Positions 2,164-29,657 of a DNA stretch of 64,000 nt are shown here, piece by piece. Position 1 is the stretch's first letter. Each line of letters opens with the position of its first letter. Under the pieces are notes generated by a model, which was not told where the DNA came from, did no database searches, and saw nothing but the letters and a program-made list of their open reading frames with translations. This stretch comes from Pseudomonas sp. GOM7. GTDB taxonomy: Bacteria > Pseudomonadota > Gammaproteobacteria > Pseudomonadales > Pseudomonadaceae. A program made the position numbers and the translations under genes. The DNA lies in contig NZ_CP113519.1 of the NCBI RefSeq assembly GCF_026723825.1, positions 1,178,001 through 1,242,000 on the forward strand. Reading direction: 5' to 3'.

Positions 2164-2514
2164 GAACAGACTTGATAGCGGAGTGGCAGGTTTATGTTGT
2201 CGTTTCGGATGCTTGTTCCGAATTGCCGCGTTTTTGCTGATGTCTTTGGTTTCGCCCTCCCGGGCGAGTCACTTTTGCAGGGCAAAAGTAACCAAAAACC
2301 TCCGCCCTTTCATCCGGCCCTCGCTGCGCGAGGGTTCGCTCACTCCATCGCCGTTCCAGAGGCCCGCCGCGGTGGGCCATCCCTGGCCCATCGCGGCTCT
2401 CGCGGCATCCATGCCGCTCAACCTCTTCCACGGCGATTCCGTTCGCCCTCCTGGGCGGGCTCTGCACGCGCCTGAACGCGAGGTAACCCAGAATTAGCGT
2501 GGAGTGCTTGAACA
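2164..2514 (+). repeat. Multi-hairpin intergenic element, copy A1
   Basis: About 350 bp between the convergent ends of polB and the DUF2878 gene. It is closely similar to A2 (16414-16769, inverted) and A3 (28819-29184). It holds a chain of short hairpins: CGCCC/GGGCG at 2253-2266, ACTTTTGC/GCAAAAGT at 2271-2289, CCCTCG/CGAGGG at 2318-2334, TGGGCCA/TGGCCCA at 2373-2390, GCGGCAT/ATGCCGC at 2402-2417 and CGCCC/GGGCG at 2444-2457. Other copies carry paired changes in these stems, which argues for structure rather than coding. Open frames exist on both strands but have no ribosome-binding site and look like by-products of GC-rich repeats. No function is known to me. Confidence 0.85.
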
Positions 2515-2543
2515 TTGGGGGTGAGCCCTATTTGTAGGCGCCC

Positions 2544-3071
2544 TCATGCGCCGCGTTGGCGGCGCAACTGGTCTTCGTACTGCGCCCGATACAACCTGGC
2601 AAAACCATGTAGCACCGGCATCACCGCCGCCCAGATCACCGCCAGCAGGGCCAGGGTCGGCCAGGTGCCCAGGGGCAGGCTGACGTCGGCGAGCTGCGCG
2701 CCGCCGTAGTAGGACAGCGGCGCACCGAGGGCGCCGAGCAGGCTGCCGCGCCACCAGGGTTGCGCCGTCCAGGCCAGGCAGTGGTTGAGGGTGGTCGCCA
2801 GCAGCAGCCAGAGCAGGGCCAGCCACAGCGGAATCAACTGGCGTGGCTCACCGAAGTCGAATACCCCGAGGTTGAGCAGAAAGCTGTCCAGCGCGCTGCC
2901 GGCGAGGAACACGCTGAGCAGCAGCTTGCCTTCCGCCGCCCAGCTACTTACCCACAGCAGGTGCACCGCCAACACCCCGGCCACCACCAGCAGCCAGAGG
3001 CCGTCACCGCCCAGCACGCAGGCGAGCCAGCCAAGCTGGAAGAGAAGGGCGTTGGCGATCAGTTTAGGCAT
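2544..3071 (-). CDS. DUF2878 family inner-membrane protein
   Basis: 175-residue, very hydrophobic protein of the DUF2878 family with about five predicted membrane segments and a charged C-terminal tail (YRAQYEDQLRRQRGA). The biochemical function is unknown. It is the last gene of a nine-gene minus-strand operon and overlaps the end of the upstream CFA/UfaM-type methyltransferase by 8 bp, so translational coupling is likely. Genes of this family often follow CFA-synthase-like genes in proteobacteria. A role in handling the modified lipid at the membrane is an inference from position only. The start is taken at the first ATG of the overlap. Confidence 0.85.
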   Translation of the reverse strand: MPKLIANALLFQLGWLACVLGGDGLWLLVVAGVLAVHLLWVSSWAAEGKLLLSVFLAGSALDSFLLNLGVFDFGEPRQLIPLWLALLWLLLATTLNHCLAWTAQPWWRGSLLGALGAPLSYYGGAQLADVSLPLGTWPTLALLAVIWAAVMPVLHGFARLYRAQYEDQLRRQRGA

Positions 3072-4338
3072 CGAGGTTTCCTAGAAGGGGAGCAGGCCGC
3101 GCCGAGGGTTTGGCCAGCAGCAGTTGGGCGGTGCCAATGGTGCGTTCGAGGAAGCCCCCTTCGCAATAGCACAGGTAGAACTCCCACAGCCGGTAGAAAT
3201 AATCGTCGTAACCCAGTTGCTCGAGGCGATGCCGCGCCTGGCGCAGGTTGTCGTGCCAGATACGCAGGGTGCGCGCGTAGTGCAGGCCGAAGTCTTCCAT
3301 GTGGTGCAGGTTGAGGTCGGTATGCCGGCTGACCACGTCGAGCATCTTGTGCATCGACGGCAGCGCGCCGCCGGGGAAGATGTAGCGCTGGATGAAGTCG
3401 ACGCTGCGCCGCGCCTGTTCGTAGCGCTGGTCGCGGATGGTGATGGCCTGCAGCAGCATCAGCCCATCGGGCTTGAGCAAGCGCGCGCACTGGGCGAAGT
3501 AGGTGGGCAGGAAGTGATGGCCGACGGCTTCGATCATTTCGATGGACACCAGTTTGTCGTACTGGCCGCTCAGGTCGCGGTAGTCCTCCAGCAGCAGGGT
3601 GATGCGATCTTCCAGGCCCAGCTCGCGAATGCGCTGCTGGGTATGGGCGTACTGTTCGCGTGACAGGGTGGTGGTGGTCACCCGGCAGCCGTAGCGGGTC
3701 GCGGCGTGGATGGCCATGCTGCCCCAGCCGGTGCCGATCTCCAGCAGGTGGTCGCTGCGCTTGAGATCGAGCTTCTGGCAGATGCGTTCGAGCTTGTTCA
3801 GCTGGGCCTGTAGCAGACTCTCGTCGTCGCTGCGGAACATCGCCGCCGAGTACATCATGGTGGGGTCGAGGAACTGCTCGAACAGCTCGTTGCCCAGGTC
3901 GTAGTGCGCGGCGATGTTGCGCCGCGAGCCGCTGCGGGTATTGCGGTTGAGCCAGTGCAGGCCCTGGATCAGCGGGCGCCCCAGGCGCGCCAGACCGCCC
4001 TCCATGGCATCGAGCACGTCGAGGTTGGCGACGAAGATGCGGATCACCGCGGTCAGATCCGGGGTGCTCCAGTAGCCGTGAATATAGGCCTCGCCCGAGC
4101 CGATCGAGCCGTTGCCGGCCACCAGACCCCAGACGGCCGGGTCGTGCACGTCGATCTCGGCGCGCAGACGCGCCTGCGGGTCGCCGAAGTGCAGGCTGTC
4201 GCCGGCTTCGTGGATGATCAGCAGGCCGTGGCGCAGATTCTGCAACTGGCGCAGTACGGCGCGGCGCAGCAGGCTGGCACCGATGCCGTTGCCGCTGCGC
4301 ACCAGGTTCTTCGCGGAGTTCAGGCTAGAGCTTTTCAT
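3064..4338 (-). CDS. SAM-dependent CFA-synthase-like fatty acid methyltransferase (UfaM/Cfa type)
   Basis: 424-residue member of the cyclopropane-fatty-acyl-phospholipid synthase family, which transfers a methyl(ene) group from SAM to the double bond of membrane phospholipid acyl chains. The SAM-binding motif EIGTGWGS is at 200-207, and the family signature HYDLGN...FLD...MMYS is at about 145-165. The start at 4338 (MKSSSLNS) is preferred over an upstream ATG because it overlaps the DUF1365 stop by 14 bp and has a GGA-type ribosome-binding site. In the company of DUF1365, an FAD oxidoreductase, an SDR, photolyase and a MerR regulator, the better parallel is the light-induced ufaM of P. putida (methylated/furan fatty acids) rather than the stationary-phase Cfa. 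Product specificity cannot be read from sequence. Confidence 0.92.
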   Translation of the reverse strand: MKSSSLNSAKNLVRSGNGIGASLLRRAVLRQLQNLRHGLLIIHEAGDSLHFGDPQARLRAEIDVHDPAVWGLVAGNGSIGSGEAYIHGYWSTPDLTAVIRIFVANLDVLDAMEGGLARLGRPLIQGLHWLNRNTRSGSRRNIAAHYDLGNELFEQFLDPTMMYSAAMFRSDDESLLQAQLNKLERICQKLDLKRSDHLLEIGTGWGSMAIHAATRYGCRVTTTTLSREQYAHTQQRIRELGLEDRITLLLEDYRDLSGQYDKLVSIEMIEAVGHHFLPTYFAQCARLLKPDGLMLLQAITIRDQRYEQARRSVDFIQRYIFPGGALPSMHKMLDVVSRHTDLNLHHMEDFGLHYARTLRIWHDNLRQARHRLEQLGYDDYFYRLWEFYLCYCEGGFLERTIGTAQLLLAKPSARPAPLLGNLDA

Positions 4339-5125
4339 GGGGCATGTCCTTCGCTTGTGGGCGGGCGACGCGGAAGCTGCCTTCTGCGGGCCGGTGGTCA
4401 AAAATCGGGATGCGCTTGAGCAGCAGGCGCAGGGCCTGCCAATAGATGGCCAGCAGGGTCTTGCCGGCCATCCAGGGAAAACTCAGCAGATAGCGATGCA
4501 GGCTGGCGCGGGTCAGGGGTTGACGCTGCAAGGCCAGGTTGGCGTCGAACACCTTGGTGTCGCCCTGCCAGTCGGCCATGTGCACGCCCAGGCGCTCGCC
4601 CACTGGGCTGAGGCTCATGCGGTACTGCAGCTCGCGCGGCAGGAAGGGCGAGACGTGAAAGGCCTTGTCCACGCTGAAGCGCTGGCGCCCTTCGCCACTG
4701 GCCGGCAGCACGTAGTGATAACGCTCGCGCCAGGGCGTGTTGCTGACTTCGCAGAGCACCGCCATCAGCCGTTGTTCGGCGTCGTGGCAGTAGAAGAGGC
4801 TCACCGGGTTGAAGGCCAGGCCCCAGCTACGCGGCTGCGTCAGCACGCAGATGCGCCCCTGCGGGCGGATGCCGAGGGCCGCTTGCACGCGGTCGCGCAC
4901 CGCCTCGTGCAAAGGCGTGCCCTGGCGTGTGGCCTCGGGCAGATAGTCGCTTTCGCGGAAGGCGAAGGGCGCCCAGCGACCGGCGCCGGCCAGACGCGAC
5001 AGGGCGAACAGTTGCGCCTGTTCGCTCAGATCCAGATACAGCAGGCCCATGCGATAGCGGAAGGCATGCTTGCGCGGGGCGAAGCGACGGTGCTGCACCC
5101 AGCCGTTGTACAGGGCGCTGATCAC
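4325..5125 (-). CDS. DUF1365 domain-containing protein
   Basis: 266-residue protein of the DUF1365 family, beginning MISALYNGWVQHRRFAPRKH. The family is recurrently found between an FAD-dependent amine-oxidase-like protein and a CFA-like methyltransferase, as here, so it probably acts in the same lipid-modification pathway; its reaction is not established. It overlaps its upstream neighbour by 4 bp (ATGA) and its downstream neighbour by 14 bp, indicating a polycistronic message. No signal peptide or convincing membrane segment is visible. The family assignment is firm, the role inferred. Confidence 0.93.
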   Translation of the reverse strand: MISALYNGWVQHRRFAPRKHAFRYRMGLLYLDLSEQAQLFALSRLAGAGRWAPFAFRESDYLPEATRQGTPLHEAVRDRVQAALGIRPQGRICVLTQPRSWGLAFNPVSLFYCHDAEQRLMAVLCEVSNTPWRERYHYVLPASGEGRQRFSVDKAFHVSPFLPRELQYRMSLSPVGERLGVHMADWQGDTKVFDANLALQRQPLTRASLHRYLLSFPWMAGKTLLAIYWQALRLLLKRIPIFDHRPAEGSFRVARPQAKDMPHEKL

Positions 5126-6369
5126 CAGCTTTCCCCCAGCTCGCGGGCCACGCGCAGGGCGCTGACCACGCCATCCTCGTGGAAGCCATTGGCCCAGTAG
5201 GCGCCGCAGAAGTAGCTGTGCTGCGCACCGGCCAGTTCCTGCCAGCGTGCCTGCGCGGCGATGCCGGCCAGGCTGTACTGCGGGTGGGCGTACTGGAAGC
5301 GGCCGAGGATCTGGCGCGGGTCGATGGTGGCGGTCTGGTTGAGGCTGACGCAGAAGGTGGTTTCGCTGTCGATGCCCTGCAGGATGTTCATGTCGTAGGT
5401 CACGGCGGCTGGATGTTCGCTGGGGCCGCCGAGGCGATAGTTCCAGCTGGCCCAGGCCAGGGGGCGTTTGGGTAGCAGGCGGGTGTCGGTGTGCAGCACC
5501 ACGTCGTTGTTGGCATAGGGCAGGGCGCCGAGGATGTCCCGTTCGGCCTGGCTGGGCTGGGCCAGCAGGGCCAGGGCCTGGTCGCTGTGGCAGGCGAACA
5601 CCACCTTGTCGAAGCGTTCGCTACCGGCGGCGTTGTGCAGGGTCACACCGTCGGCGTCGCGCTCGACGCGCAGCACCGGGCAGTTGAGGCGGATACGCTC
5701 GGCGAAACTGGCGGTCAGCGGTGCCACGTAGCTGCGCGAGCCCCCTTCGATCACGTGCCATTGCGGGCGATCGCTCACCGACAGCAGGCCGTGGTTCTTG
5801 AAGAAGCGCACGAAGAACTGCAGCGGGAAGGCCAGCATGTCCACCAGCGACATCGACCAGATCGCCGCACCCATGGGCACGATGTAGTGCTCGATGAAGC
5901 GCCGGCCGTAACCGTTGCGGGTTAGGTAGTCACCCAGGGTCATGTCGGCGGCGATGCGGCCCTGGTCGAGGTCGTCCAGGGCCTTGCGGTTGAAGCGCAG
6001 GATGTCACGCACCATGCCCCAGAAGGCCGGCGATAGCAGGTTGCTGCGTTGGGCGAAGAGGGTATTGAGGTCGTGGCCGTTGTATTCCGTGCCGGTCACT
6101 GGGTCGCTGACCGAGAAACTCATCTCGGTGGGCTTGAAGGCCACGCCCAGCTCGTTCAGCAGGCGGATGAAGTTGGGGTAGGTCCAGTCATTGAAGACGA
6201 TGAAGCCGGTGTCGATGGCGTAGGCGCGGCCATTCACCTCCACATCCACGGTATGGGTGTGGCCGCCGATCCAGTCACTGGCCTCGAACACCTGAATGTC
6301 ATGGTTGCGCTGGAGCAGGTAGGCGCAGGTCAGGCCGGCGATGCCGCTGCCGACGATGGCGATTTTCAT
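5122..6369 (-). CDS. FAD-dependent oxidoreductase (amine-oxidase/desaturase-like)
   Basis: 415-residue flavoprotein. The N-terminal Rossmann motif GSGIAGL is at 7-13, followed by the acidic end of strand 2 (FEASDWIGGHTHTV), typical of the NAD(P)-binding_8/flavin amine oxidase family. The C-terminal FAD-contacting segment YFCGAYWANGFHEDG is present. Homologues sit beside CFA-like methyltransferases in light or singlet-oxygen induced operons and are candidates for the flavin-dependent desaturation step of furan fatty acid synthesis; applied here that is inference. It overlaps both neighbours by 4 bp. No missing motifs or frameshifts are seen. Confidence 0.92.
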   Translation of the reverse strand: MKIAIVGSGIAGLTCAYLLQRNHDIQVFEASDWIGGHTHTVDVEVNGRAYAIDTGFIVFNDWTYPNFIRLLNELGVAFKPTEMSFSVSDPVTGTEYNGHDLNTLFAQRSNLLSPAFWGMVRDILRFNRKALDDLDQGRIAADMTLGDYLTRNGYGRRFIEHYIVPMGAAIWSMSLVDMLAFPLQFFVRFFKNHGLLSVSDRPQWHVIEGGSRSYVAPLTASFAERIRLNCPVLRVERDADGVTLHNAAGSERFDKVVFACHSDQALALLAQPSQAERDILGALPYANNDVVLHTDTRLLPKRPLAWASWNYRLGGPSEHPAAVTYDMNILQGIDSETTFCVSLNQTATIDPRQILGRFQYAHPQYSLAGIAAQARWQELAGAQHSYFCGAYWANGFHEDGVVSALRVARELGESW

Positions 6370-7121
6370 TGAGCGTCCTCGTTACGCGCCAGGCGCCGGC
6401 CGATGGCCAGTTGCAGGCGGCTGGGCAGGCTGCCGAGCAGTTTCAGTACGGCGATGAAGGGGGTGGGGAAGGCGATTTCGTGCGGGCGCTTGTCCAGGCG
6501 TTCGGCGATGTAGCGCGCGGCGCGCTCCACCGGCCAGCGCATGGGCATGGGGAAGTCGTTCTTCTGCGTCAGCGGCGTGTCGACGAAACCAGGGCTGACC
6601 AGGGTAACGTCGATGCCTTCGGCGGCCAGGTCTATGCGCAGGCTCTGCAGCAGGTAGCGCATGGCCGCCTTGGAGGCGCCATAGGCTTCGGAGCGCGGCA
6701 ACGGCAGGTAGGTCACCGAGCTGCCAACACCGACCAGATGCGGACGTTGCCCCTCACGCAACAGGGGCAGTGCCGCCTCGATGCAATGGCTGGCGGAGAA
6801 CAGGTTGGCGCTGACCACACGCTCGATCATCGCTGCCTCGAACTGGCGCACCTCGACGTATTCGCAGGTGCCGGCGTTGAGGATGGCGCAGTCCAGCGCA
6901 CCCCAGGCCTGGGCGATGCGCTGGCCGATGGCGCGCACCTGCTCGGCATCGGTGAGATCCCCCGGTGCCACCAGAACCTGCTCGCCATAGCGTGCGGCCA
7001 GGGCCTGCAGCGGGCCGACGCTGCGCGCGCTGAGTGCGACTCGGTGGCCGGCGCGCAGTAGTTCTTCCGCCAGCGCCGCGCCGATGCCACTGCTGGCGCC
7101 GGTGAGCCAGATGCGTTTCAT
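6366..7121 (-). CDS. Short-chain dehydrogenase/reductase
   Basis: 251-residue classical SDR. The NAD(P)-binding TGASSGIG motif is at 7-14, the NAG motif at 82-84, a serine pair near 134-135 and the catalytic Y147-x3-K151 (YGASK), so it should be an active NAD(P)H-dependent oxidoreductase. The substrate is unknown. It sits in the middle of the photolyase-to-DUF2878 operon with 4-bp overlaps on both sides, which suggests a substrate linked to the lipid modification or stress response encoded there. The C-terminus (LQLAIGRRLARNEDAQ) has no membrane anchor. Confidence 0.93.
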   Translation of the reverse strand: MKRIWLTGASSGIGAALAEELLRAGHRVALSARSVGPLQALAARYGEQVLVAPGDLTDAEQVRAIGQRIAQAWGALDCAILNAGTCEYVEVRQFEAAMIERVVSANLFSASHCIEAALPLLREGQRPHLVGVGSSVTYLPLPRSEAYGASKAAMRYLLQSLRIDLAAEGIDVTLVSPGFVDTPLTQKNDFPMPMRWPVERAARYIAERLDKRPHEIAFPTPFIAVLKLLGSLPSRLQLAIGRRLARNEDAQ

Positions 7122-7540
7122 GCCAACCTCCGCTTCAGCCAGGCGATGACCCTGCCCATCAGGGGCAGGTGTTCGTAGAGCAGGGCACCGGCGTCGAAGT
7201 AGTCGCGGTGCTGGTAGACCTTGTCGCGCCAGCGCAGGTGCGAGCAGCCCTCCACGGCGATCTCGGCACCGCCGCGCAGGCGCGGATGGCGGTAGCGCAT
7301 GGTCCAGCGCAGGTAGCCCTCGCCTTCGGCGACCTGATCGAAGCCGTGGAACTCGAACTGCAGGGCCTCGACATTGGCGTACAGCTCGGCGAAGTAGCGG
7401 CGCACGGCGCTCAGCCCATGCACCTCATGCAGTGGGTCGCGAAACGACACGTCATCGCTGTACAGCTCGCCGAGCAGGTCGAGGTTGTCCTTGTTCAGCG
7501 TAGCGAAGCGCTGGCCGAACTGGCGGAGAAAGTCGCTCAT
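7118..7540 (-). CDS. NTF2-like (SnoaL-type) domain protein
   Basis: 140-residue single-domain protein with the NTF2-like/SnoaL fold signature: an N-terminal helix (FLRQFGQRFATLNKDN), then LGELYSDDVSFRDPLHEVHG and a cone-shaped beta-sheet region with YLRWTMRYRH. Such proteins act as small hydrolases, isomerases or binding proteins; the substrate is unknown. It lies between the photolyase and SDR genes with 4-bp overlaps, so it is co-translated with the light-associated operon. It is cytosolic, with no signal peptide. Confidence 0.85.
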   Translation of the reverse strand: MSDFLRQFGQRFATLNKDNLDLLGELYSDDVSFRDPLHEVHGLSAVRRYFAELYANVEALQFEFHGFDQVAEGEGYLRWTMRYRHPRLRGGAEIAVEGCSHLRWRDKVYQHRDYFDAGALLYEHLPLMGRVIAWLKRRLA

Positions 7541-8976
7541 GCCAGGGCCTCTTCGCTGCCGGCCAGGTTCTTGAAGGCCGCCAGGGCGCGTTGCCGTGAG
7601 CGGGCCATGTCGACTATCGGACGCGGGTAGCCGGCCGGAGCGAACAGGCCGCCGAGTGCGGACGGGTCATGGATGTCGCGCTTGTTCAGGCCTGCCAGTT
7701 CCGGCACCCATTGGCGGATGAAGTGACCGTCCGGGTCGAATTTCTGCGACTGGCTGATGGGGTTGAAGATGCGGAAGTAGGGCGCGGCGTCGGTGCCGGT
7801 GGAGGCGCTCCACTGCCAGCCGCCATTGTTCGCCGCCAGGTCGCCGTCGATCAGCTGGCGCATGAAGAAGCGTTCGCCTGCGCGCCAGTCGATCAGCAGG
7901 TTCTTGGTCAGGAACATGGCGACGATCATGCGCAGGCGGTTGTGCATCCAGCCGGTTTCGCGCAACTGGCGCATGGCCGCGTCGATGATCGGCAGGCCGG
8001 TGCGCCCCTCCTGCCAGGCCGCCAGTTCCTCGGGCGCCTGACGCCAGGACACGGCTTCGGTCTCCAGGCGGAAGGCACGATGCATCGACACGCGCGGGTA
8101 GCCCACCAGGATGTGCTTGTAGAACTCGCGCCAGAGCAGCTCGTTGATCCAGGTGACGACGCCGGGGTTGCCGCTGTCGAATTCGCCTTTATTGGCCGCC
8201 AGCGCCGCATGCAGACACTGGCGTGGCGACAGCACGCCAGCGGCCAGGTAGGGAGATAGCTGGCTGGTGCCGGGCTTGGCGGGAAAATCGCGCTCGTCCT
8301 GGTAGTAGGCGACCTGCTCGTCGGCGAAGCGCGCCAGGCGTTGCTGGGCGACCTGTTCGCCGGCTGGCCAGAGGCTGCGTAGCAGATCACTGGGCGTGGC
8401 GAAACCTTCCACGGCAGTGGGCACCGGGTCGGCCGGCAGCGGCAGGGGCGCCTGCGGCCTGGGCGTGGGCTGCACGGCTGGGAGGCTCGCATGCAGGTGC
8501 TCGTAGCAGACCCGGCGGAACTGGCTGTAGACCTGGAAGTAGCCACCCGAGCGGGTCAGCACGCTACCGGGGCGGAAGAAGATCTGGTCGAGGTGGCTGT
8601 ACCAGTCGATGGCCTGCTGGGCGAGATAGGCCGCGACGGTTCGATCACGCTGGCTTTCGTTGACGCCATATTCCTCGTTGACGTGCACGGCGCAGACCTC
8701 GTGCGCATGGCACAGCTCGGCGATTACCGCCGGGGCTGCCTGCCAGTCGTCGCAGCGGCGTATCAGCAGTGGCACGCCGAGGGCCGCCAGTGCCTGGCTT
8801 AGCTGAGCCAGGTTGCGCAGCCAGAAATCCACCTTGCACGGGGCGTCGTCATGGCGCTGCCATTGCCCAGGGGTGATCAGGTATAAGGCGATGCTCGGCC
8901 CGGCGCCCATGGCCTGGTTCAGGGCGCTGTTGTCCTGCACGCGCAGGTCGCTGCGAAACCAGATCAGTCGGCGCAT
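7537..8976 (-). CDS. phrB: Deoxyribodipyrimidine photolyase
   Basis: 479-residue class-I CPD photolyase/cryptochrome family protein, which uses blue or near-UV light and FADH- to split cyclobutane pyrimidine dimers. An N-terminal antenna-cofactor domain (RRLIWFRSDLRVQDNSAL) is followed by the C-terminal FAD domain with ELLWREFYKHIL and, near residue 385, NGGWQWSASTGTD. This length and motif set match E. coli PhrB. The start at 8976 is chosen because AGGAGG lies 7 nt upstream and the protein begins exactly at the conserved domain. It overlaps the MerR gene by 13 bp and is co-transcribed with it. Light-dependent induction is expected from the PplR-type box upstream of the operon. Confidence 0.97.
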   Translation of the reverse strand: MRRLIWFRSDLRVQDNSALNQAMGAGPSIALYLITPGQWQRHDDAPCKVDFWLRNLAQLSQALAALGVPLLIRRCDDWQAAPAVIAELCHAHEVCAVHVNEEYGVNESQRDRTVAAYLAQQAIDWYSHLDQIFFRPGSVLTRSGGYFQVYSQFRRVCYEHLHASLPAVQPTPRPQAPLPLPADPVPTAVEGFATPSDLLRSLWPAGEQVAQQRLARFADEQVAYYQDERDFPAKPGTSQLSPYLAAGVLSPRQCLHAALAANKGEFDSGNPGVVTWINELLWREFYKHILVGYPRVSMHRAFRLETEAVSWRQAPEELAAWQEGRTGLPIIDAAMRQLRETGWMHNRLRMIVAMFLTKNLLIDWRAGERFFMRQLIDGDLAANNGGWQWSASTGTDAAPYFRIFNPISQSQKFDPDGHFIRQWVPELAGLNKRDIHDPSALGGLFAPAGYPRPIVDMARSRQRALAAFKNLAGSEEALA

Positions 8977-9920: not shown

Positions 9921-9924
9921 CGGG

Positions 9925-10875: not shown

Positions 10876-10893
10876 CGATACTCCCCTCTGATC

Positions 10894-10919
10894 TTGTACA
10901 TGGCTATTGCCATGTACAA
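10894..10919. promoter_or_regulatory. PplR/LitR-type operator (TGTACA-N12-TGTACA) before the photolyase operon
   Basis: Perfect inverted repeat with 11-bp arms TTGTACATGGC and GCCATGTACAA around a TATT centre. Seen as a direct repeat it is TGTACA (10895-10900), 12 bases, TGTACA (10913-10918). This fits exactly the PplR1 footprint consensus I recall for P. putida light-inducible promoters, T(G/A)TACA-N12-TGTA(C/T)A. Further half-site-like motifs follow: TTGTACGTGCACAA at 10945-10958 and TTGTACA at 10964-10970. It is 20 bp from the start codon of the DUF523/DUF1722 gene, so it probably overlaps the core promoter in the usual MerR fashion. Confidence 0.75.
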
Positions 10920-11001
10920 CTTAGGGGGAATCATAGGCACAGAATTGTACGTGCACAATGTTTTTGTACAGCTTCTGTATTGCTTTTTGTGAGGGTCTTA
11001 G

Positions 11002-11141: not shown

Positions 11142-12352
<1,211 letters not shown>

Positions 12353-14671: not shown

Positions 14672-15076
14672 TGAGACCGGACTGGCAAGTTTGTGTGTTG
14701 GTTTCGGTTGTTTTCGGTGTTCAAGCTGCTTATCGGCGTTTAGCTGATATCTCCTATTTCGCCCCCCGGCGACCTTCTTTTGTCAAACGCCACAAAAGAA
14801 GGCAAAAAGGCTTGGCCCCGCCATCCGGCCCCGGCTTCGCCGGGGTTCGTTCGCTCCATCGCTGCTCCGAGGGTCGGCTTACAAGGGCCGTCCCTGGCCC
14901 TTTAAGCCTCTCGCGGCATCCATGCCGCTCGCCCCTCTGCGCAACGATTCCACTCACCCTCCTGAAGGGGCCATTCGCGCGCCTGAACGAGCTGGCATGC
15001 CATGGGCTGCCCGGCGTGTTCTGATAGCAGTGAAGTCGCGATGGGGCTATCGAGTTAAACCAAAACTTTCATTCGC
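14672..15076 (+). repeat. Multi-hairpin intergenic element, copy B1
   Basis: About 400 bp downstream of hemH with the same architecture as the A copies but diverged sequence. It starts with GGACTGGCAAGTTTGTGT. Stems include CCTTCTTTTGT/ACAAAAGAAGG at 14773-14802, CCCCGG/CCGGGG at 14829-14845, AAGGGCC/GGCCCTT near 14884-14902 and GCGGCAT/ATGCCGC near 14913-14928. It ends with GTTAAACCAAAACTTTCATTCGC, which recurs inverted at the start of copy B2 (29253). IS110 begins immediately after. Confidence 0.8.
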
Positions 15077-15095
15077 GTAGATACCGTCTTACCCG

Positions 15096-16070
15096 TCATC
15101 TCGCAATGGCTAGCTGCGGGTCAAAGGGTTTGCCGGATTTGAGTACGCCGTAAGCGATGCAAAGCAGCTTGCGCATGGCCGCGCAGACGATCTGTTTGCC
15201 GGCCTTGCCTCGTGCCTTTAGCCGCTTGGCCATCGCTCGGATCGCGGCGTTGTGGGTCAGGGAGACTACTGCTGGCAGGTAAAGCCCTGCACGTAACACT
15301 GAAGAGCCCATCCGCGATATGCGCACATGCCCTTTGTGCTTCCCCGAGTCCTGCAGCTTAGGGTTCAAACCTGCAAAAGCCGTAACATCGCGACTGTCAC
15401 CGAAACGTTGCATGTCGCCCAGCTCTGCCAGCAGCAACGTAGCGGTTCTGTCGGCAATGCCATCGATGCTTTTAAGCAAGTCGCGCTGGCCTCGTAGGTC
15501 ATCGTTGTCATCGAAGTGCTGCTTGATCGCTTTCAGCGTCTCAGCGATCTGCTGGCGAATATGCTCAAGTACCGACCGAATCGACGCAGCGACTTTGACA
15601 TCGCTGGTCACGTCCAGACGGTTCTGTTCCATGCGCTCCAACTCCTGAAGATCCTTCAGACGATGATTCAGGGCTTTGAGGCGCTTGATCTCCGGTTGCT
15701 CGGGCTTCCAGGCACGCAACTTATGCTGATGCAGATGGCCATAATCGGCAATCAGCTTGGCGTCCACCTTGTCGGTCTTCACGCGCTGCAACTGGCTGCG
15801 GGCATAAAGCGCAATCTGCGTCGGATTCAATACGCAGATCTTATAGTCATGCTCGTACAACCATTCAGCCAGCGCTTCGTGATAGATGCCGGTCGCCTCC
15901 ATCACGATCCAAGCCTGCGGTTCAGCATGCTTGCCCAACCATTGCAGCAGAACTTTAAAGCCCTTCGGGTCGTTGCTCAGCTTGGCCTTGGTGCGATGCT
16001 TGCCATTGGCCTGAAGGGTCGCGATGTCGAAGGTGTGCTTGGCGATGTCGATACCCACAACTGTGCTCAT
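15096..16070 (-). CDS. IS110 family transposase (DEDD recombinase)
   Basis: 324-residue transposase. The N-terminal DEDD (RuvC-like) domain starts GIDIAKHTFD with D8 as the first acidic residue. The C-terminal Transposase_20 (IS116/IS110/IS902) domain includes LLKSIDGIADRTATLLLAEL and FAGLNPKLQDSGKHKG, containing the conserved serine-bearing region. The start at 16070 follows a strong AAAGGAGGAGG; an upstream ATG at 16100 is less likely. The frame is intact, so the element may be active. In this family a bridge RNA from the non-coding end guides target choice. Confidence 0.95.
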   Translation of the reverse strand: MSTVVGIDIAKHTFDIATLQANGKHRTKAKLSNDPKGFKVLLQWLGKHAEPQAWIVMEATGIYHEALAEWLYEHDYKICVLNPTQIALYARSQLQRVKTDKVDAKLIADYGHLHQHKLRAWKPEQPEIKRLKALNHRLKDLQELERMEQNRLDVTSDVKVAASIRSVLEHIRQQIAETLKAIKQHFDDNDDLRGQRDLLKSIDGIADRTATLLLAELGDMQRFGDSRDVTAFAGLNPKLQDSGKHKGHVRISRMGSSVLRAGLYLPAVVSLTHNAAIRAMAKRLKARGKAGKQIVCAAMRKLLCIAYGVLKSGKPFDPQLAIAR

Positions 16071-16413
16071 CTCCTCCTCCTTTGGGTAGCTGATCGTCAC
16101 TGCATCCGTCCAACCTTGTTTATGCGAGCTCGAGGCTCTGGATACCGTTCGGACTTACTGGATGAGTGCGGAGGAGCGCAGCGCAATCTACGTTACAGGC
16201 TCAAGGCTTCAGGGCGTACTCGGCTTGCAACTCCTCCCCCGATGATCAGTCGGGAACCATAGCCTCACTGAAAGGCTTTGGTCGAGATACAAGGGCGTAC
16301 TCGCGAAGCAGTACGCCGTTGGTGGGAGTATTAGGCGTGAGCCTTGGTGCCGAACTTGGCATGGCCCGGCGGACTGTTCGCTTAGGCTCCTGAGTCCGCC
16401 CTACGGCTGCCCC
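16071..16413 (-). ncRNA. Possible bridge-RNA region of the IS110 element
   Basis: Non-coding stretch 5' of the transposase, the position where IS110-group elements encode their bridge RNA. It contains a perfect hairpin GGCGTACT/AGTACGCC with an 8-nt loop (16294-16317) and a direct repeat GGGCGTACTCG at 16212 and 16293, compatible with a multi-stem RNA. The strand is assumed to be that of the transposase. No RNA boundaries can be fixed from sequence alone. Confidence 0.35.
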
Positions 16414-16769
16414 CATCAAGCACTCCGCGCTGCTCTGGGTTACCTCGGGTTCAGGCGCGTGCAGAGCCCGCCCAGGAGGGCGAACGGAATCGTCGTGGAA
16501 GAGGTTGAGCGACATGGATGTCGCGAAAGCCACGATGGGCCATGGATGGCCCACCGTGGCGGGCCTCTGGAGCGGCGATGGAGTGAGCGAACCCTCGCGA
16601 AGCGAGGGCCGGATGACCGGGCGGAGGGTTTTGGTTACTTTTGCCCGTCAAAAGTGACTCGCCTGGGAAGGCGAAACCAAGAACATCAGCCAAAACGCGG
16701 CAATTCGGAACAAGCACCCAAAACACCCTGTCGCCAGTCCGCTATCAAGACAGATTTCCCGAGATTCCA
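16414..16769 (-). repeat. Multi-hairpin intergenic element, copy A2 (inverted)
   Basis: Inverted copy of the A-type element. On the minus strand it reads from GGAATCTCGGGAAA (near 16769) to GAGTGCTTGA (near 16414). Stem 1 is CGCCT/AGGCG here instead of CGCCC/GGGCG, stem 3 is CCCTCG/CGAGGG, and stem 5 is GCGACAT/ATGTCGC instead of GCGGCAT/ATGCCGC; all these changes preserve pairing. It lies between the IS110 element and the convergent exported-protein gene. Confidence 0.85.
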
Positions 16770-16821
16770 CGAAAAACCCAAGAAAGACCAGTATCCACGA
16801 TACGGGCCTTTCGCATGCGTA

Positions 16822-18137: not shown

Positions 18138-18140
18138 GTG

Positions 18141-20546: not shown

Positions 20547-20572
20547 GGCAGATCCGGCCGCCAGTTCCTGCT

Positions 20573-21046: not shown

Positions 21047-21098
21047 GGCGATTTCCCCAGGCGTTGTGGGCTCATGTAGAAGACCGCTGCCAGGGCCA

Positions 21099-21944: not shown

Positions 21945-22052
21945 CGTCCATCCTTGATGAAATCTGGTGATGTCCGGCAGCTAAGCACGTCAGGCTGGGC
22001 GAGGGCATTGGCAGAAGGTCGCAAATCCCTGCGACCCTGGTTCGTGCTGAGC

Positions 22053-22859: not shown

Positions 22860-23173
22860 GGAGGCTCCTGAATGGTGTCGTGTCGTTATGGTTATGAACC
22901 TGTCCGAGTGGTCAGGATTCTGCTGCCATAGCAAAAACGGCGCCAATTCTCGTGATTGTGCTTATCCGTGGCAAATCAATTGGATAGCTGCCGTTTAGGA
23001 TTTTTCAGGAGGGATGTTTTGCACTATTTTCTGACCAAAAGGACAAGGTTGGCCGTAAGTTGGTGCGCTGCCGCCTGGGGCGCGCGGCGCACCCTACGGA
23101 TCAGGACTCTTCGTAAGCCATGTAGCCCGGATGCAATCCGGGGAAAGCGCCCCCGGATTGCATTCGAGCCAAG
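22860..23173. repeat. Intergenic region with REP-like repeats
   Basis: It holds a GTGCGC...GCGCACCCTACGGAT motif (23069-23098) and, at 23122-23168, an inverted pair built from TAGCCCGGATGCAATCCGGGG and CCCCGGATTGCATTCGAGC. The same units recur at 24598, 40335, 42465, 51467 and 60580. No gene is seen. Confidence 0.75.
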
Positions 23174-23539
23174 TCAGAGCACGTGATCGAGATTGACCGG
23201 CTCCCCCGGTTTGGCATGCAGCTTGGCGCGGATATCGGCGAAGACCCTGTCGTACTCGTCGTGCCCGCGCATCACCGGGCTGGCGCTGACGGGCAGACCA
23301 TGGCGTGCGGCCACGCGGGTGGCCACGCTGGCGAAGTTGTAGGCGACATCGCGGTGCAGCTCGAACTCTTCCGCGAAGGGCCTGCCGTTCACCTCGCCGG
23401 CCAGGCGCATGTGCAGCATGGCGCCGTGCGCGGGATCCTGGCGCACCTCGTAGTAGAAGTCGACCGAGTAGGGCGGTGCGCGGCGCATGCCCTCGGGACG
23501 GCCGAGGTTGTCACGGTGCAGATGACCGGGGGTGAACAT
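23174..23539 (-). CDS. DUF5064 family protein
   Basis: 121-residue protein of the Pseudomonas DUF5064 family: MFTPGHLHRDNLGRPEGMRR, HGAMLHMRLAGEVNGRPFAE. No function is known. It begins 13 bp after the arcC stop and is therefore probably the last gene of the arcDABC transcript. There is no signal peptide or membrane segment. Confidence 0.85.
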   Translation of the reverse strand: MFTPGHLHRDNLGRPEGMRRAPPYSVDFYYEVRQDPAHGAMLHMRLAGEVNGRPFAEEFELHRDVAYNFASVATRVAARHGLPVSASPVMRGHDEYDRVFADIRAKLHAKPGEPVNLDHVL

Positions 23540-23552
23540 GAATGTTGCCCTC

Positions 23553-24479
23553 TCAGCGATAGACGATGCCGTTGCTTCCCAGGCTGATGCGTGTGCCGGA
23601 ACGGCCCTGGACGATGGCCTCGATGTTCTCCAGCGAACCGATCACCGCGGTATTGCCGGTATTGCGCGCGAACTCGCAGGCAGCCTGCACCTTGGGCCCC
23701 ATGGAGCCAGCGGCGAAGCCGAGCGCTTCGATCGCGTCGGGGTGGGCTTCGGCGATGCTCTTCTGGGTCGGCTGGCCCCAATCCACATAGGCGGCCTCGA
23801 CATCGGTGGCGATCACCAGCAGGTCGGCGTTGAGCTGCTCGGCCAGCAGCGCCGAGCACAGATCCTTGTCGATCACTGCCTCGACGCCTTTCAACTGCTT
23901 GCCGTCGTACATGGTCGGGATGCCACCACCACCGGCGCAGATCACCACGCTGCCCTTTTCCAGTAGCCACTTGATCGGGCGGATCTCGAAGATGCGCTGT
24001 GGGCGCGGGCTGGCAACCACGCGGCGGAACTTGTCGCCGTCGGCAGCGATGCTCCAGCCTTTTTCGGTGGCCAGGCGTTCGGCCTCTTCCTTTGTATAGA
24101 CTGGGCCGATGGGCTTGCTGGGGTGCTTGAAGGCCGGGTCGGCGCCATCCACTTCCACCTGAGTGAGGATGGTGGCGAAGGGCACCTCGAAGGGCAGCAG
24201 GTTGCCCAGCTCCTGCTCGATCATGTAGCCGATCATGCCTTCGGTCTCGGCGCCGAGCACGTCCAGCGGGTAGGGGTTGGCGGCATCATAGGCGTTGCCC
24301 TGCAGGGCCAGCAGGCCGACCTGCGGGCCATTGCCATGAGCGATCACCAGCTCGTTGCCGGGCGCCACCTTGGCGATCTGCTGGCAGGCGATACGCACGT
24401 TGTCACGCTGGTTTTCCGCGGTCATGGCTTCGCCGCGACGAAGCAGGGCGTTGCCGCCCAGGGCGATGACGAGTCGCAT
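23553..24479 (-). CDS. arcC: Carbamate kinase
   Basis: 308-residue carbamate kinase, the last step of the arginine deiminase pathway: carbamoyl phosphate + ADP gives ATP + carbamate. The N-terminus [13 protein letters not shown], then [11 protein letters not shown] and [10 protein letters not shown], are family hallmarks, and the length equals that of P. aeruginosa ArcC. The start at 24479 follows GGAGAAC; the upstream extension of the frame is non-coding. It provides substrate-level ATP during anaerobic arginine catabolism. Confidence 0.97.
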
Positions 24480-24529
24480 GGTGTTCTCCTTGGCGTTCGG
24501 ATTGAATCCGGGGGCTGTGGTTTGGGGCT

Positions 24530-24625
24530 CGGCGTCGCCGGCCAGACCCTCTCCCCCGGCCCCTCTCCCATCAATGGGAGAGGGGAGACAAGCCCATCCC
24601 CGGATGACATCCGGGCTACGTGAAC
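24530..24625. repeat. Hairpin and REP-like sequence in the arcB-arcC spacer
   Basis: Between arcB and arcC lie a long inverted repeat (CCCCTCTCCC-ATCAAT-GGGAGAGGGG within 24562-24587) and a REP-like CCCCGGATGACATCCGGGCTACG (24598-24620). Such structures inside an operon may act as mRNA processing or stability signals and could lower arcC expression relative to arcA/arcB (inference). Confidence 0.7.
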
Positions 24626-25636
24626 CTAGATATCCGCCAGGGTCGAAACCAAAATCGCCTTGATCGTGTGCATGCGGTTTTCCGCCTGCTCGAAGGCGAT
24701 GTTCCACGGCGACTCGAACACCTCTTCGGTGACTTCGATGCCGTTGGCCAACTGTGGATACTGCTCGGCGATCTGCTTGCCCACCTTGGTTTCGCTGTTG
24801 TGGAAGGCTGGCAGGCAATGCATGAACTTCACCCTTGGGTTGCCGGCGGCCCGCATGATCTCGGCGTTGACCTGGTAGGGCAGCAGTTCCTGGATGCGTT
24901 CGCCCCAGGCTTCCACCGGCTCGCCCATGGACACCCAGACGTCGGTATGGACAAAGTCGACTCCTTTGACCGCTTCCTTGGCGTCTTCGGTGAGGGTGAT
25001 GCGCGCGCCACTTTCCTCGGCGAATTGTTTGCAGGCGGTGATGTGTTCCTCGCTGGGCCACAGCGCCTTGGGCGCGGCGATGCGCACGTCCATGCCTAGC
25101 TTGGCGCCGATCAGCAGCAGCGAATTGCCCATGTTGTTGCGCGCGTCACCCAGGTAGGCATAGGCGATGTCATGCAACGGCTTGTCGCTGTGCTCGCGCA
25201 TGGTCAGCACGTCGGCGAGCATCTGCGTCGGGTGGTATTCGTCGGTCAGGCCGTTGAACACCGGCACGCCGGCGTAGGTGGCCAGTTCCTCGACGATTTC
25301 CTGCTTGAAGCCACGGTATTCGATGGCGTCGTACATGCGCCCGAGCACGCGGGCGGTGTCCTTCATCGATTCCTTGTGGCCGATCTGCGACGAGTTGGGG
25401 TCGATGTAGGTGACGTTGGCGCCCTGGTCGTAGGCCGCCACCTCGAAGGCGCAGCGGGTGCGGGTGGAGGTCTTCTCGAAGATCAGCGCGATGTTCTTGC
25501 GCTTGAGGTGCTGTTGCTCGGTGCCGGTGTACTTGGCGCGTTTGAGGTCGCGCGACAGGTCGAGCAGGTAACGCAGCTCGCGGGTGCTGTGGTGCATCAG
25601 GCTGAGCAGGTTGCGGTTGTGCATGTTGAAGGCCAT
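24626..25636 (-). CDS. arcB: Catabolic ornithine carbamoyltransferase
   Basis: 336-residue enzyme that phosphorolyses citrulline to ornithine and carbamoyl phosphate. The carbamoyl-phosphate-binding STRTR motif is at 57-61 and the ornithine-side HCLP motif is in [11 protein letters not shown]. The length and N-terminus ([20 protein letters not shown]) match P. aeruginosa ArcB, the allosteric catabolic type, rather than ArgF. The start at 25636 has GAGAGAG upstream. Second enzyme of the arc operon. Confidence 0.97.
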
Positions 25637-25699
25637 GGTTCTCTCTCCTCGTGGGCAGTGAAACACCCCGACGGCGGGTGGCCGACGGGGCTGGCTGAA

Positions 25700-26950
25700 T
25701 CAGTAGTCGATGGGGTCGCGGATGATCGGGCAGGTCATGCAGTGGCCACCGCCACGACCGCGCCCCAGTTCGCTGGCGCTGATGGTGATGACCTCGACGC
25801 CGGCCTTGCGCAGCAGGGTGTTGGTGTAGGTGTTGCGGTCGTAGCCGATCACCACGCCCGGCTCCAGGCAGATCACGTTGTTGCCGTCATCCCATTGCTC
25901 GCGCTCGGCCTCGTAGGCGTCGCCGCCGGTTTCCACCACGCGCAGCTTCGGCAGGCCGAGCGCTTCGGCGACCACGTCGACGAAGGGTTTGTTTTCCTGG
26001 CGCACGTCGATGCCACCGGGGCGGCTCTCGTCCGGGCGCAGGGTGAAGGGCACGATGGAGTTGGCCACTTCCGGGAAGATGGTCACCAGGTCGCGGTCGC
26101 AGAAGCTGAACACCGTATCCAGATGCATGGCCGCGCGGGAACGATCGAGGCCGGCGACTATGATCTTCTCCGCCGCGCCCTTGGCGAACAGCGCGCGCGC
26201 CACCTGGCCGATGGCCTGGTGCGAGGTGCGTTCGCCCATACCGATCAGCACGGTGCCGTTGCCGATGGGCATGACGTCGCCACCCTCCAGGGTGGCCGCG
26301 CCGTGATCCTTGTCCGGGTCGCCGTACCAGATCTCGAAGGGCTCATTGGCAAAGTCCGGGTGGAACTTGTAAATGGCGCTGGCCAACAGGGTTTCCTGGC
26401 GGCGTGCCGGCCAGTACATGGGGTTCAAGGTGACACCACCGTAGATCCAGCAGGTGGTGTCGCGGGTGAACTGGGTGTTGGGCAGCGGCGGGAAGATGAA
26501 GCTGGCTTCGCCCAGGTAGGCGTTGAACATCTTTGCCGCCTCGGAGTCCTTGTGCCGCGCCAGGTCGGCGCCGGACACACCACCGATGAGAAACTCGGCG
26601 ATGCGCCGGGGCTCCAGTCCCTCGACGAAATCGCGCACCTCCGTCAGCAGGCCAAGGCCGACGCTGTTGGCGGTGATCTTGCGGTCGAGGATCCACTTGA
26701 GGGCTTGCGGATCGCGCACCGTTTCTTCGAGCAGGTTATGCATCTCCACCACCTCGATGCCGCGCTCGCGCATCTTGGTCATGAAGTCGAAGTGGTCGCG
26801 TTTGGCCTGCGACACCCAGATCACGTCGTCGAACAGCAGTTCGTCGCAGTTGGCGGGGGTCAGGCGCAGGTGCGCCAGGCCCGGCGAGCAGACCATTACC
26901 TTGTGCAGTTTGCCGGCTTCGGAATGAACGCCGAGGGCTTTCTTGCTCAT
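25700..26950 (-). CDS. arcA: Arginine deiminase
   Basis: 416-residue arginine deiminase (arginine to citrulline + NH3), first step of the pathway. The catalytic cysteine is in the C-terminal [14 protein letters not shown] motif (Cys 404), with ELARH-type active-site segments ([20 protein letters not shown]) upstream. Size and motifs match P. aeruginosa ArcA. It lies 16 bp after arcD and is co-transcribed. Confidence 0.98.
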
Positions 26951-26966
26951 GAAAGAACTCCTTCTC

Positions 26967-28394
26967 CTAGAGACTCAGGAAACCGTCATACAGCCCGTAG
27001 GCCGCGATGGCGGCGCCTATCAGCACGGCCGCGAAAATCAGTTTTTCGATGCCGGTGAAAATGGTTTGCCCCAGCTCGTGCTTGGCCTTGGCGAAGAGGA
27101 TCGCGCCAGGGGCATAGAGCAGCGCGGAGAGCAGCAGGTACTGGATGCCGGCGGCATAGACCAGCCAGACCGCGTAGAGAGTGGAAACCAGTGCGATCAG
27201 CAGATCCTTGTTGCGCTCGCCGGCGGCGTTCTCGTAGGTCTCGCCGCGCGCGGCCAGCAGCACCGCATAGGCGCTGGACCAGAAGTACGGCACCAGGATC
27301 ATCGAGGTGGCCAGGTACAGCAGGCTCAGGTAAGTGGAGGCGTTGAACAGGGTGATGATCAGAAATAGCTGGATCAGCCCATTGGACAGCCACAGCGCGT
27401 TGGCTGGAACGTGATTGGCGTTCTCCTTGCGCAGGAACTCCGGCATGGTGTGGTCGCGGGCGCTGGCGAAGAGAATCTCGGCGCACAGCAGCGTCCACGA
27501 CAGCAAGGCGCCGGCCAGCGAGACGATCAGGCCGATGGAGATGAGCTGCGCGCCCCAGGGGCCGACCACCTGCTCCAGCACACCGGCCATGGAAGGGTTC
27601 TTCAACCCGGCCAGTTCGGCCTGGGCGAGAATGCCCTGGCTGAGCACGTTGACCAGTACCAGCAGCAGGAGCACGCCGACGAAACCGATCACCGTGGCCT
27701 TGCCGACGTCGCTGCGTTTCTCGGCGCGAGCGGAGAAGATGCTCGCCCCCTCGATGCCGATGAACACCCAGACGGTAACCAGCATCATGTTGCGCACCTG
27801 ATCCAGCACGCTGCCCAGTTCGGGGTTGCCAGCGCCCCAGAAGTCGCGGGTGAACACGTCGAGCTTGAAGGCGATGGCGGCGATGACGATGAACAGCGCC
27901 AGCGGCAGCATCTTAGCCACCGTGGTCACCGTGTTGATAAAGGCCGCCTCCTTGATCCCGCGCAGTACCAGAAAGTGCAGCAGCCACAGCAGGATCGAGG
28001 CGCCGATCACCGCTGGCAAGGTATTGCCTTCGCCGAATACCGGGAAGAAATAACCCAGGGTGGAGAACAGCAGCACCATGTAACTGACGTTGCCGATCCA
28101 GGCGCTGATCCAGTAACCCCAGGCCGAGGAAAAGCCCATGTAATCGCCGAAACCGGCCTTGGCATAGGCGTACACCCCGCCGTCGAGTTCGGGTTTGCGG
28201 TTGGCCAGGGTCTGGAACACGAAGGCCAGGGTCAGCATGCCGACGCCGGTGATCAGCCAGCCGATCAGGGTGGCTCCGGCGCTGGCGCTGGCCGCGATGT
28301 TCTGGGGAAGGGAGAAGATACCGCCGCCGACCATGGAGCCGACGACCAGCGCGACGAGCGCGCCGAGGTGGAGTTTTTGCGTCGAGTCAGACAT
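26967..28394 (-). CDS. arcD: Arginine/ornithine antiporter
   Basis: 475-residue APC-superfamily transporter with about 12-13 membrane segments, beginning [20 protein letters not shown], the conserved first helix of ArcD-type exchangers. It exchanges external arginine for ornithine, an energy-neutral step of the deiminase pathway. It is the first gene of arcDABC. The start at 28394 is used because the upstream 19 codons overlap the promoter/ANR region. An ANR box lies 64 bp upstream. Confidence 0.96.
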
Positions 28395-28457
28395 CTCAAT
28401 TACCTCTGTGTCACCAGGGGGACATGGGTATTGAGCGCGTTTGGCGAGCACTGCATC

Positions 28458-28471
28458 CTGACTTGAATCAA
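28458..28471 (-). promoter_or_regulatory. ANR/FNR box of the arcDABC promoter
   Basis: On the minus strand the site reads TTGAT-TCAA-GTCAG, fitting the ANR consensus TTGA(T/C)-N4-(A/G)TCA(A/G). A -10-like CAATAC (28434-28429) lies about 30 bp downstream, consistent with class-II activation near -41.5. This matches known oxygen-limited induction of arc operons by ANR. Confidence 0.8.
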
Positions 28472-28818
28472 TGGTCAGGTTTCGTCAACGCACATCCAGG
28501 TTGCAGGCGTTGTCGAGCACCTGAGAAGCATCAGGACTGCTGCTCTGGCTGGCGTATGGTACGTCAGTGCCAATACCATAGCCCTGAATTTCCGGGATGC
28601 AATGGTGGCTTTTTGCGATGGGGCGGGAGCGGGCGGGGCGGTTGGCCCCGCTCGACGCGCTGGCCGGGTAGGCTGGCGCAGACCCGAAGGTCAAAGGAAG
28701 GAGCACGACGCCGGGCGGGTAACCCCTGCAGGCAGTTGCGTCATGTGGGTACAGCATGCCGTGGGAAACTTTCAGCCAGCTTTCCGCGGCATGACAGTCC
28801 CTTTAAAAAGGTTCTGCG
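28472..28818. other. Intergenic region upstream of arcD
   Basis: About 350 bp with no convincing gene. Near its end GACAGTCCCTTTAAAAAGG (28793-28811) recurs in inverted, slightly diverged form at 29670-29689, bracketing the A3/B2 repeat pair. Binding sites for ArgR could lie here but none is obvious by eye. Confidence 0.5.
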
Positions 28819-29184
28819 CGGAATCTCGGGAAAGTCAGTCTTGAGGCCGGACTGGCAATACGGTGTGAGTTGTTCTTGTGCCTGTTCCGAATTGCCGCGT
28901 TTTTGTTGATGTCTCTGGTTTCGCCCTCCCGGGCGAGTCACTTTTGACGGGCAAAAGTAACCAAAACCCTCCGCCCGGTCATCCGGCCCTGGCTTCGCCA
29001 GGGTTCGCTCACTCCATCGCCGCTCCAGAGGCCCGCCGCGGTGGGCCATCCATGGCCCATCGTGGCTTTCGCGACATCCATGTCGCTCAACCTCTTCCAC
29101 GACGATTCCGTTCGCCCTCCTGGGCGGGCTCTGCGCGCGCCTGGAACTGCGGTAACCCAGAACTAGCGTGGAGTGCTTGAACAT
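28819..29184 (+). repeat. Multi-hairpin intergenic element, copy A3
   Basis: A-type element on the plus strand. Stem 3 is CCCTGG/CCAGGG here (CCCTCG/CGAGGG in A1), and stem 5 is GCGACAT/ATGTCGC (GCGGCAT/ATGCCGC in A1). Stem 2 has lost one pair (ACTTTTG/CAAAAGT). It is followed by two extra hairpins at 29186-29229 and then by inverted copy B2. Confidence 0.85.
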
Positions 29185-29185
29185 G

Positions 29186-29229
29186 AGGTCAGCCGTATGG
29201 CTGACCTGAATGCCGGCTGAAAGCCGGCA
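29186..29229. repeat. Two tandem strong hairpins between A3 and B2
   Basis: AGGTCAGCC-GTAT-GGCTGACCT (29186-29207) and TGCCGGCT-GAA-AGCCGGCA (29211-29229), both perfect. The corresponding place in the other A/B locus is occupied by IS110, and a degenerate half of the first hairpin remains at its right end. They may form a bidirectional terminator or the IS target. Confidence 0.75.
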
Positions 29230-29252
29230 AGCTGTTCAACGCATGAAACTGA

Positions 29253-29657
29253 GCGAATGAAAGTTTTGGTTTAACTCGAGATTTCACAACCACTAGAACA
29301 CGCCGAGCAACCTATGGAGTGCCCGTTCGTTCAGGCGCGCGAATGCCCCCTTCAGGAGGCCGAACGTAGGCATTGCGCAGGGGGACGAGTGGCCTGGACG
29401 GCCACGAGAGGCTTGATGGGCCATGGATGGCCCATGCAAGCCGGCCCCCGGAGCGATGCCGGAGTGAGGGGAGTCGAGCGCAGCGAGACCCGGATGGCGG
29501 GGGTGCGTTTCTTTTGCTTACTTTTCTTTGCGCACTTCAAAGAAAAGTGAGTCGCCCGAGGGGGCGAAACCCGGAATATCTGAAAACACCCAAAGCGGCG
29601 CCCAGAACACCAACGCAAGACGACAAGATCACACAAACTTGCCAGTCCGGTATCAAC
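29253..29657 (-). repeat. Multi-hairpin intergenic element, copy B2 (inverted)
   Basis: Inverted B-type element. Stems include ACTTTTCTTTG/CAAAGAAAAGT (29520-29548; CCTTCTTTTGT/ACAAAAGAAGG in B1), TCGCCC/GGGCGA just downstream, a TGGGCCA/TGGCCCA stem near 29417-29434, and GTGGCC/GGCCAC near 29389-29405 in place of GCGGCAT/ATGCCGC. Its outer end GCGAATGAAAGTTTTGG matches the end of B1 next to IS110. Confidence 0.8.

Follow-up and report, generated by a model that had tools for sequence, protein, structure and literature searches.

The 64,000-nucleotide stretch of DNA analysed here (the window; bases 1178001-1242000 of the 5.42-Mb single contig that makes up the genome of Pseudomonas sp. GOM7) contains five hairpin-rich intergenic copies of a repeat, A1, A2, A3, B1 and B2. 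We conclude that these are probably the arms of a miniature element with ISL3-type ends, that each carries a predicted RNA of the TwoAYGGAY family (Rfam RF01731), and that the element likely acts, once transcribed, as a mobile decoy titrating the regulator RsmA/CsrA; we put the probability of this reading at roughly 0.58. From comparison of the copies we demonstrate the structure, the family and the past insertion of the element, and set these out first.

Inspection of the window found hairpin-rich sequence, with the listed stem variants, at all five places named in a preliminary description. That description had taken them as five independent elements of 350-400 nt; instead, A and B proved to be opposite inverted arms of one composite mobile element of ~880 bp. 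When genome matches of A3, B2 and RF01731 were clustered into 91 loci, extracted and their arms mapped, the arms were convergent at 79, with a single arm at 9, another order at 1 and no arm at 2. Some of the single-arm loci belonged together as the two parts of a composite that an insertion had separated, for example B1 and A2. Composite element I (A3, spacer and B2; positions 28810-29671 from its arms and ends, the right edge being set by eye) begins with an ISL3-type terminal inverted repeat of end type a (28810-28830, plus strand, one mismatch to the end common to the genome copies), an end kind that also borders ISL3 transposase genes in other genomes, and continues with the A arm, a ~60-bp spacer with two hairpins, the inverted B arm and a decayed right end. 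An inner terminal repeat lies on its right side (29639-29652, minus strand). Composite element II (B1 to A2; 14675-16778), the spacer of which is split by an IS110-family insertion sequence, ends in a type a repeat (locus L075; 16758-16778, minus strand, two mismatches). A1 is a lone A arm (L073; 2164-2515), with no B arm found adjoining.

In an Rfam search with the five window arms, A2 and B2 reached the gathering score of RF01731 (44.4 bits at 16502-16566 and 43.7 bits at 29382-29448, against a cut-off of 43) and the other three fell below it. The role of the repeat, given as unknown in the preliminary description, is thus in part accounted for, as the core of the arms is the Rfam TwoAYGGAY RNA, for which CsrA binding has already been proposed (PMC4333381). 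The TwoAYGGAY motif was described by Weinberg et al. in 2010 (PMC2864571, whose source table gives human gut, gamma-Proteobacteria and Clostridiales), is characterised by tandem G-A pairs in one stem (PMC4333381) and is placed with E. coli CsrB in Rfam clan CL00106. Across the genome RF01731 gave 104 matches at E<=1e-3, 34 of them above the cut-off (best 150 of 430 candidates), with matches in 0 of 14 control genomes. As the matches run against the direction in which A and B are read, the RNA units point outward from the centre of the element.

A covariance model, R1, was built from a sequence-only alignment of 48 diverse arms, with the structure written by hand from that alignment. On the outward strand, each arm is predicted to form two hairpins with CAnGGAnG loops, both held within an outer stem. 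R1 located this unit in A1 (2343-2444, minus strand, 115.7 bits), A2 (16482-16583, plus strand, 112.1 bits), A3 (29012-29113, minus strand, 108.8 bits), B1 (14854-14955, minus strand, 102.7 bits) and B2 (29362-29464, plus strand, 94.9 bits), and energy folding gave all five the shape of the model (z of -5.7, -4.9, -4.0, -4.5 and -5.2, respectively). Two opposite strands, folded as a control, also folded well (z -4.65 and -5.13), so that energy alone does not decide the strand. Helices 1 and 2 of the outer stem were 96.1% and 92.4% paired in the alignment of 48 arms. In tallies of 48, 130 and 75 unique arms, the commonest form of the first loop was CATGGATG and that of the second CAnGGAyG, in which n varied (T, G, A) and GGA was constant; 22 of 130 own-genome arms carried an insert in the first loop region. 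By eye, tandem G-A pairs were visible below hairpin 1 in many rows of the alignment. Some own-genome units with R1 match lengths of 114-163 carried inserts of ~12-60 nt within or close to the hairpin loops (for example L064, L078 and L117).

The copy number in this genome was high and far exceeded chance expectation. A3 gave 46 matches (best 40 of 148 candidates), of which 40, itself counted, were at 88-100% identity and 6 were weaker, and B2 gave 77 (best 40 of 132 candidates). With R1, 150 of 150 scored candidates had E<=1e-3 and 149 fell below 1e-6 (a lower bound, from the best 150 of 4892 candidates), and the genome therefore holds at least 149 arms. Within the 91 loci R1 found 153 units (two at 68 loci, one at 17, none at 6), and at all 68 two-unit loci the units faced outward, giving at least 68 element copies each with two back-to-back RNA units. 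L062 and L106 are deletion forms of 241 and 259 bp in which only the outer portions of the two arms survive, together with the inner terminal repeats, and L147 resembles them without a clear left repeat.

Selection on structure, which had been proposed from the five window copies, was borne out by covariation. Across the 48 arms and 29 pairs, 92.3% of 1383 alignment cells were paired, against 76.3% after shuffling and 34-54% for slid versions of the structure, a comparison in which the structure is favoured over the slid versions by being derived from the same 48 sequences. Double changes were seen at 23 of the 29 pairs and in 212 cells, compared with 52.8 +/- 6.1 after shuffling (0 of 500 shuffles reached 212). 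Under a tree-based null of our own implementation, in which substitutions were re-dealt along the tree, seven pairs were significant at E<=0.05, all seven lying within the 29-pair structure and including pairs 9-101 and 20-88 of the outer stem; one of the seven, 53-77, was standard in just 71% of rows. At p<0.01 stood 16 of the 29 structure pairs, against 0.9% of all column pairs. The signal held with more copies aligned: 225 longer arms gave six significant pairs (five at least 97% standard, three of these five in a further hairpin downstream; the sixth 67% standard), and 212 trimmed arms gave four (three of them at least 96% standard). Own-genome A arms alone (n=73) gave one significant pair, and B arms alone (n=51) gave one at E<=0.05, which does not correspond to a base pair, with three more at E=0.1. 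Taken apart, the own-genome arms are weak proof of covariation, which is why copies from other genomes were added, and it was these that supplied the proof.

Cells with G-U outnumbered those with A-C by 79:19 in the sequence-only alignment, and by 226:29 and 110:16 in model-fitted alignments, which lean towards the model. Because covariation exceeds the tree-based null and G-U outnumbers A-C, the evidence points to RNA on the outward strand as the selected fold, rather than DNA pairing or strand-blind mutation; of the "structured RNA or DNA" first suggested, the RNA half is supported and the DNA half disfavoured, and the strand is opposite to the A/B direction. Protein-coding repeats were also ruled out. 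No conserved open frame was found in the arms, the most widely open frame spanning just 18 of 73 among A arms and 4 of 51 among B arms, so the frames inside were rightly described as spurious, and internal deletions were multiples of three in 25 of 103 cases in A arms and 12 of 89 in B arms.

The arms are bordered on the outside by 21-bp ends, which fall into two types, a and b. Both ends were recognisable in 27 copies, 23 with one a and one b, 2 with aa and 2 with bb; with respect to arms A and B, both arrangements of the a and b ends were seen (13 versus 10 of the 27), which suggests that the interior may flip between the inner repeats. A target duplication of at least 7/8 bases was present in 12 of the 27 copies (re-paired flanks: mean 1.0, maximum 5) and a perfect 8/8 duplication in 7 (re-paired mean 0.43), and left flanking 8-mers were 81% A+T. 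The site of composite I was empty in relatives G008 and G012, which miss window positions 28796-29687 (L362) and 28796-29703 (L363); its own target duplication was unreadable because the right end is decayed.

Of 298 genomes of the genus, own counted, 67 contained the a end (<=3 mismatches), and 16 regions were examined, 14 at a-end places and two others (L399, a G008 copy, and L400, ten bases); L386, L392 and L397 gave no usable result. Five regions (L385, L390, L391, L396, L398) were insertion sequences, 1278-1308 bp long, that shared these ends and contained a transposase-like frame, and the three proteins profiled matched DDE_Tnp_ISL3 (E 2.4e-67 or lower). L396 and L398 had one a-like and one b-like end, like the own-genome elements, and perfect 8-bp duplications flanked L391 and L398 and were absent from L385, L390 and L396. 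In one other genome, L387 (803 bp) and L395 (766 bp) held an outward RNA pair inside such ends; L388 and L394 showed weak arm similarity and no R1 match. A second miniature kind belonging to the same transposon was seen in G662, where L389 and L393 are armless elements of 448-449 bp with the same ISL3-type ends and a different interior, L393 with a perfect 8-bp duplication. No transposase frame was present in intact elements of the GOM7 kind, and we suppose that an ISL3 transposase acting in trans would have moved them.

Beyond this genome, A3 matched at E<=1e-5 in 101 of 149 genomes of the genus (best 4 candidates each) and R1, under strict filters, in 11 of 369 genomes of the class (best 10 candidates), own counted in both. 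Outside close relatives mainly the RNA core was matched, often as an outward pair round a spacer of ~100-325 bases (17 inspected). R1 found 77 units in 41 loci of other genomes, where 28 of 30 distinct two-unit loci, counted by hand, faced outward, and 98 units in 85 named or viral loci. Matches in Pantoea, Pectobacterium, Leclercia, Samsonia and Serratia scored 31.7-50.2 bits; RF01731 was above cut-off at two of nine Enterobacterales loci, both Pantoea (L215 and L216), and L216 had two R1 units facing outward. In two loci of other genomes a DUF6124 gene (PF19619, L182) or a similar small frame (L184) lay between inverted arms, and the arms may also bracket cargo genes. A3 had no match in phage and plasmid collections, and a phage or plasmid origin was set aside on that ground. 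The exact hairpin-1 pattern was seen in five viral contigs, three of which matched R1 (L203, L204, L206), L203 with its units as an outward pair; these matches may represent prophage edges or host DNA.

RsmA/CsrA binding is predicted from the loops. The longer CsrA consensus is A/UCANGGANGU/A. Among near-full-length arms, at least two CANGGANG motifs were present on the RNA strand in nearly all cases (A arms, 72 of 73; B arms, 48 of 51), and on the other strand in no arm of either kind; the flank rate was 0.32 per kb per strand. Hairpins exposing ANGGA are a stated target of CsrA (PMC7366521), and GGA numbered ~11 per A arm. In folds, fully unpaired GGA came to 6.5 in 15 A arms and 3.3 in 15 B arms, compared with 1.5 in shuffled sequences and 0.07 on the other strand. 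The genome has one CsrA-family gene.

We propose that the element would insert where A+T content is high, usually between the ends of two genes. A transcript running on from either gene would then include the far arm in the GGA sense and, the two units being oppositely oriented, one GGA-exposing RNA would result whichever side transcription entered from. Using a simple codon-position score for gene orientation (80 of the 91 loci entered; 74 classified, 6 unclear), 43 of 74 copies lay between two gene ends, places where read-through would be expected, and 5 of 74 between two gene starts. The arm RNAs would then bind RsmA dimers as RsmY, RsmZ and CsrB do, lowering free RsmA. More tentatively, and at somewhat under even odds, each insertion might add two outward RsmA/CsrA decoys, the ~150 units together setting the level of free RsmA and rewiring the Gac-Rsm network as strains drift apart in copy number.

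Several observations weigh against this interpretation. Sigma-70-like sites in composite I numbered 0 in a promoter scan, no common promoter was apparent by eye in 17 spacers inspected, and an exact match to the GacA-type box, searched on both strands with the palindromic GacA box motif, occurred 0 times in the 91 own-genome loci; on these grounds independent expression of the arms is doubtful. Many of the ~150 arms may be silent relics. The gain in unpaired GGA was modest in B arms, RF01731 scores lay near the cut-off (70 of the 104 genome matches fell below it), and units faced inward at 2 of the 30 distinct two-unit loci outside this genome (L173 and L201). The CsrA role of TwoAYGGAY is, as presented in PMC4333381, itself a prediction. 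An ISL3 transposase was not found in the genome; the one PF01610 match (L152, G000:C1:336632-336985), although above cut-off, was rejected, as it lies in a longer protein read as a fatty-acid desaturase.

The main rival is a cis effect on the host transcript, in which arm RNA at the 3' end of read-through transcripts would bind RsmA or block exonucleases and so set the stability of neighbouring mRNA, or would insulate genes against read-through. The placement of 43 of 74 copies between two gene ends, as against 5 between gene starts, would suit such a role, as would the strong folds of the five window units and the absence of a promoter of the element's own from the composite I scan and the 17 spacers. 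A tail-to-tail bias is, however, common in intergenic repeats, as described for those of P. fluorescens (PMC2718517), and may mean least harm; moreover, a cis role alone would not account for the retention of a pair of CAnGGAnG loops in which n varies, nor for the restriction of the GGA sense to one strand. We regard it as unlikely, though the strongest of the rivals.

It is improbable that the copies are decayed junk, a formerly functional RNA amplified as the passenger of an extinct ISL3 transposon. The genome yielded no ISL3 transposase, truncation or interruption is seen in some arms, just 27 copies have two recognisable ends, and one RNA unit or none remains at 17 and 6 of the 91 loci, all of which would be expected of relics; yet the structure model still recognises own-genome A arms that differ by up to 21%, and pairing is preserved in the copies from other genomes. 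More improbable still is a DNA-level structure, such as a cruciform or single-stranded hairpins, that would serve transposition or target recognition with no RNA role. The location in a mobile element with inverted arms would favour it, and folded DNA ends are used by other mobile elements, but the 4- to 8-fold excess of G-U over A-C on one strand is not predicted by DNA pairing. The arms also seem unneeded for movement, because the armless L389 and L393 share the same ends and L393 has its perfect duplication. Least probable is that the pairing is a mutational by-product of template switching or gene conversion perfecting hairpins, without selection: quasi-palindrome correction can make matched double changes in short hairpins, but here the covarying outer stem encloses two hairpins and spans ~90 nt, the GGA loops are kept, and G-U far exceeds A-C, although a mutational process would be expected to treat both strands alike.

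The insert that splits composite II (~15077-16303) carries an IS110-family transposase gene (15096-16100, minus strand; Pfam PF01548 and PF02371). Seven near-identical copies of this IS110-family element were seen in the genome, four of them in composite spacers and three elsewhere, and a REP-like hairpin was seen by eye after the insert in the flanks inspected (L350-L356).

Compared with known systems, the arms share with TwoAYGGAY two AYGGAY-loop hairpins in an outer stem and matches above the Rfam cut-off, and differ in occurring as inverted pairs within an ISL3-type mobile element, with ~150 units per genome. CsrB/CsrC and RsmX/RsmY/RsmZ likewise have GGA in exposed hairpin loops, and CsrB belongs to the clan of RF01731. 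RsmY and RsmZ of one strain are described with eight GGA each, three in loops (PMC4353343); the number per A arm (~11) is comparable, whereas the density is lower, an arm being about three times their length. Unlike the CsrB/Rsm RNAs, the RNA described here is mobile and multicopy, has no exact GacA-type box in the 91 loci and is known from its sequence alone. With miniature inverted-repeat transposable elements (MITEs) of the ISL3 family the element shares ISL3-type inverted ends, an 8-bp target duplication and the lack of a transposase, but it carries a conserved structured RNA. ISL3 MITEs are also usually shorter than this element.

There are partial precedents for RNA from mobile repeats and for mobile elements acting on Rsm: small RNAs of unknown role are described from Coxiella QMITEs (PMC10969869), and CsrA is named among the possible partners of an IS200-derived RNA in Salmonella (PMC12594629). 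With plasmid-borne RsmQ (PMC9928087), too, a mobile element influences the Rsm system of its host, with the difference that RsmQ is an Rsm protein whereas the agent proposed here is a decoy RNA. The R0-R200 repeats of P. fluorescens (PMC2718517) resemble the element as large intergenic repeat families with a tail-to-tail bias; R200, at 320 bp and 47 copies in SBW25, is near the size of one arm, a comparison made by description only. Our searches of the open-licence literature showed no publication that links a mobile repeat to TwoAYGGAY or to CsrA decoys. CsrA binding had already been predicted for TwoAYGGAY (PMC4333381), and for its mobile, high-copy form no earlier account came to light.

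TwoAYGGAY had no function listed in 2010 and has since then been solely a predicted CsrA binder; its occurrence here in inverted pairs, within a high-copy ISL3-type element, supplies both a biology and a system in which it can be tested. If the arms bind RsmA, they would explain a class of repeat in which open frames arising by chance may carry hypothetical-protein annotations, and titration of a regulator by a mobile element would be a new route by which transposons shape bacterial behaviour.

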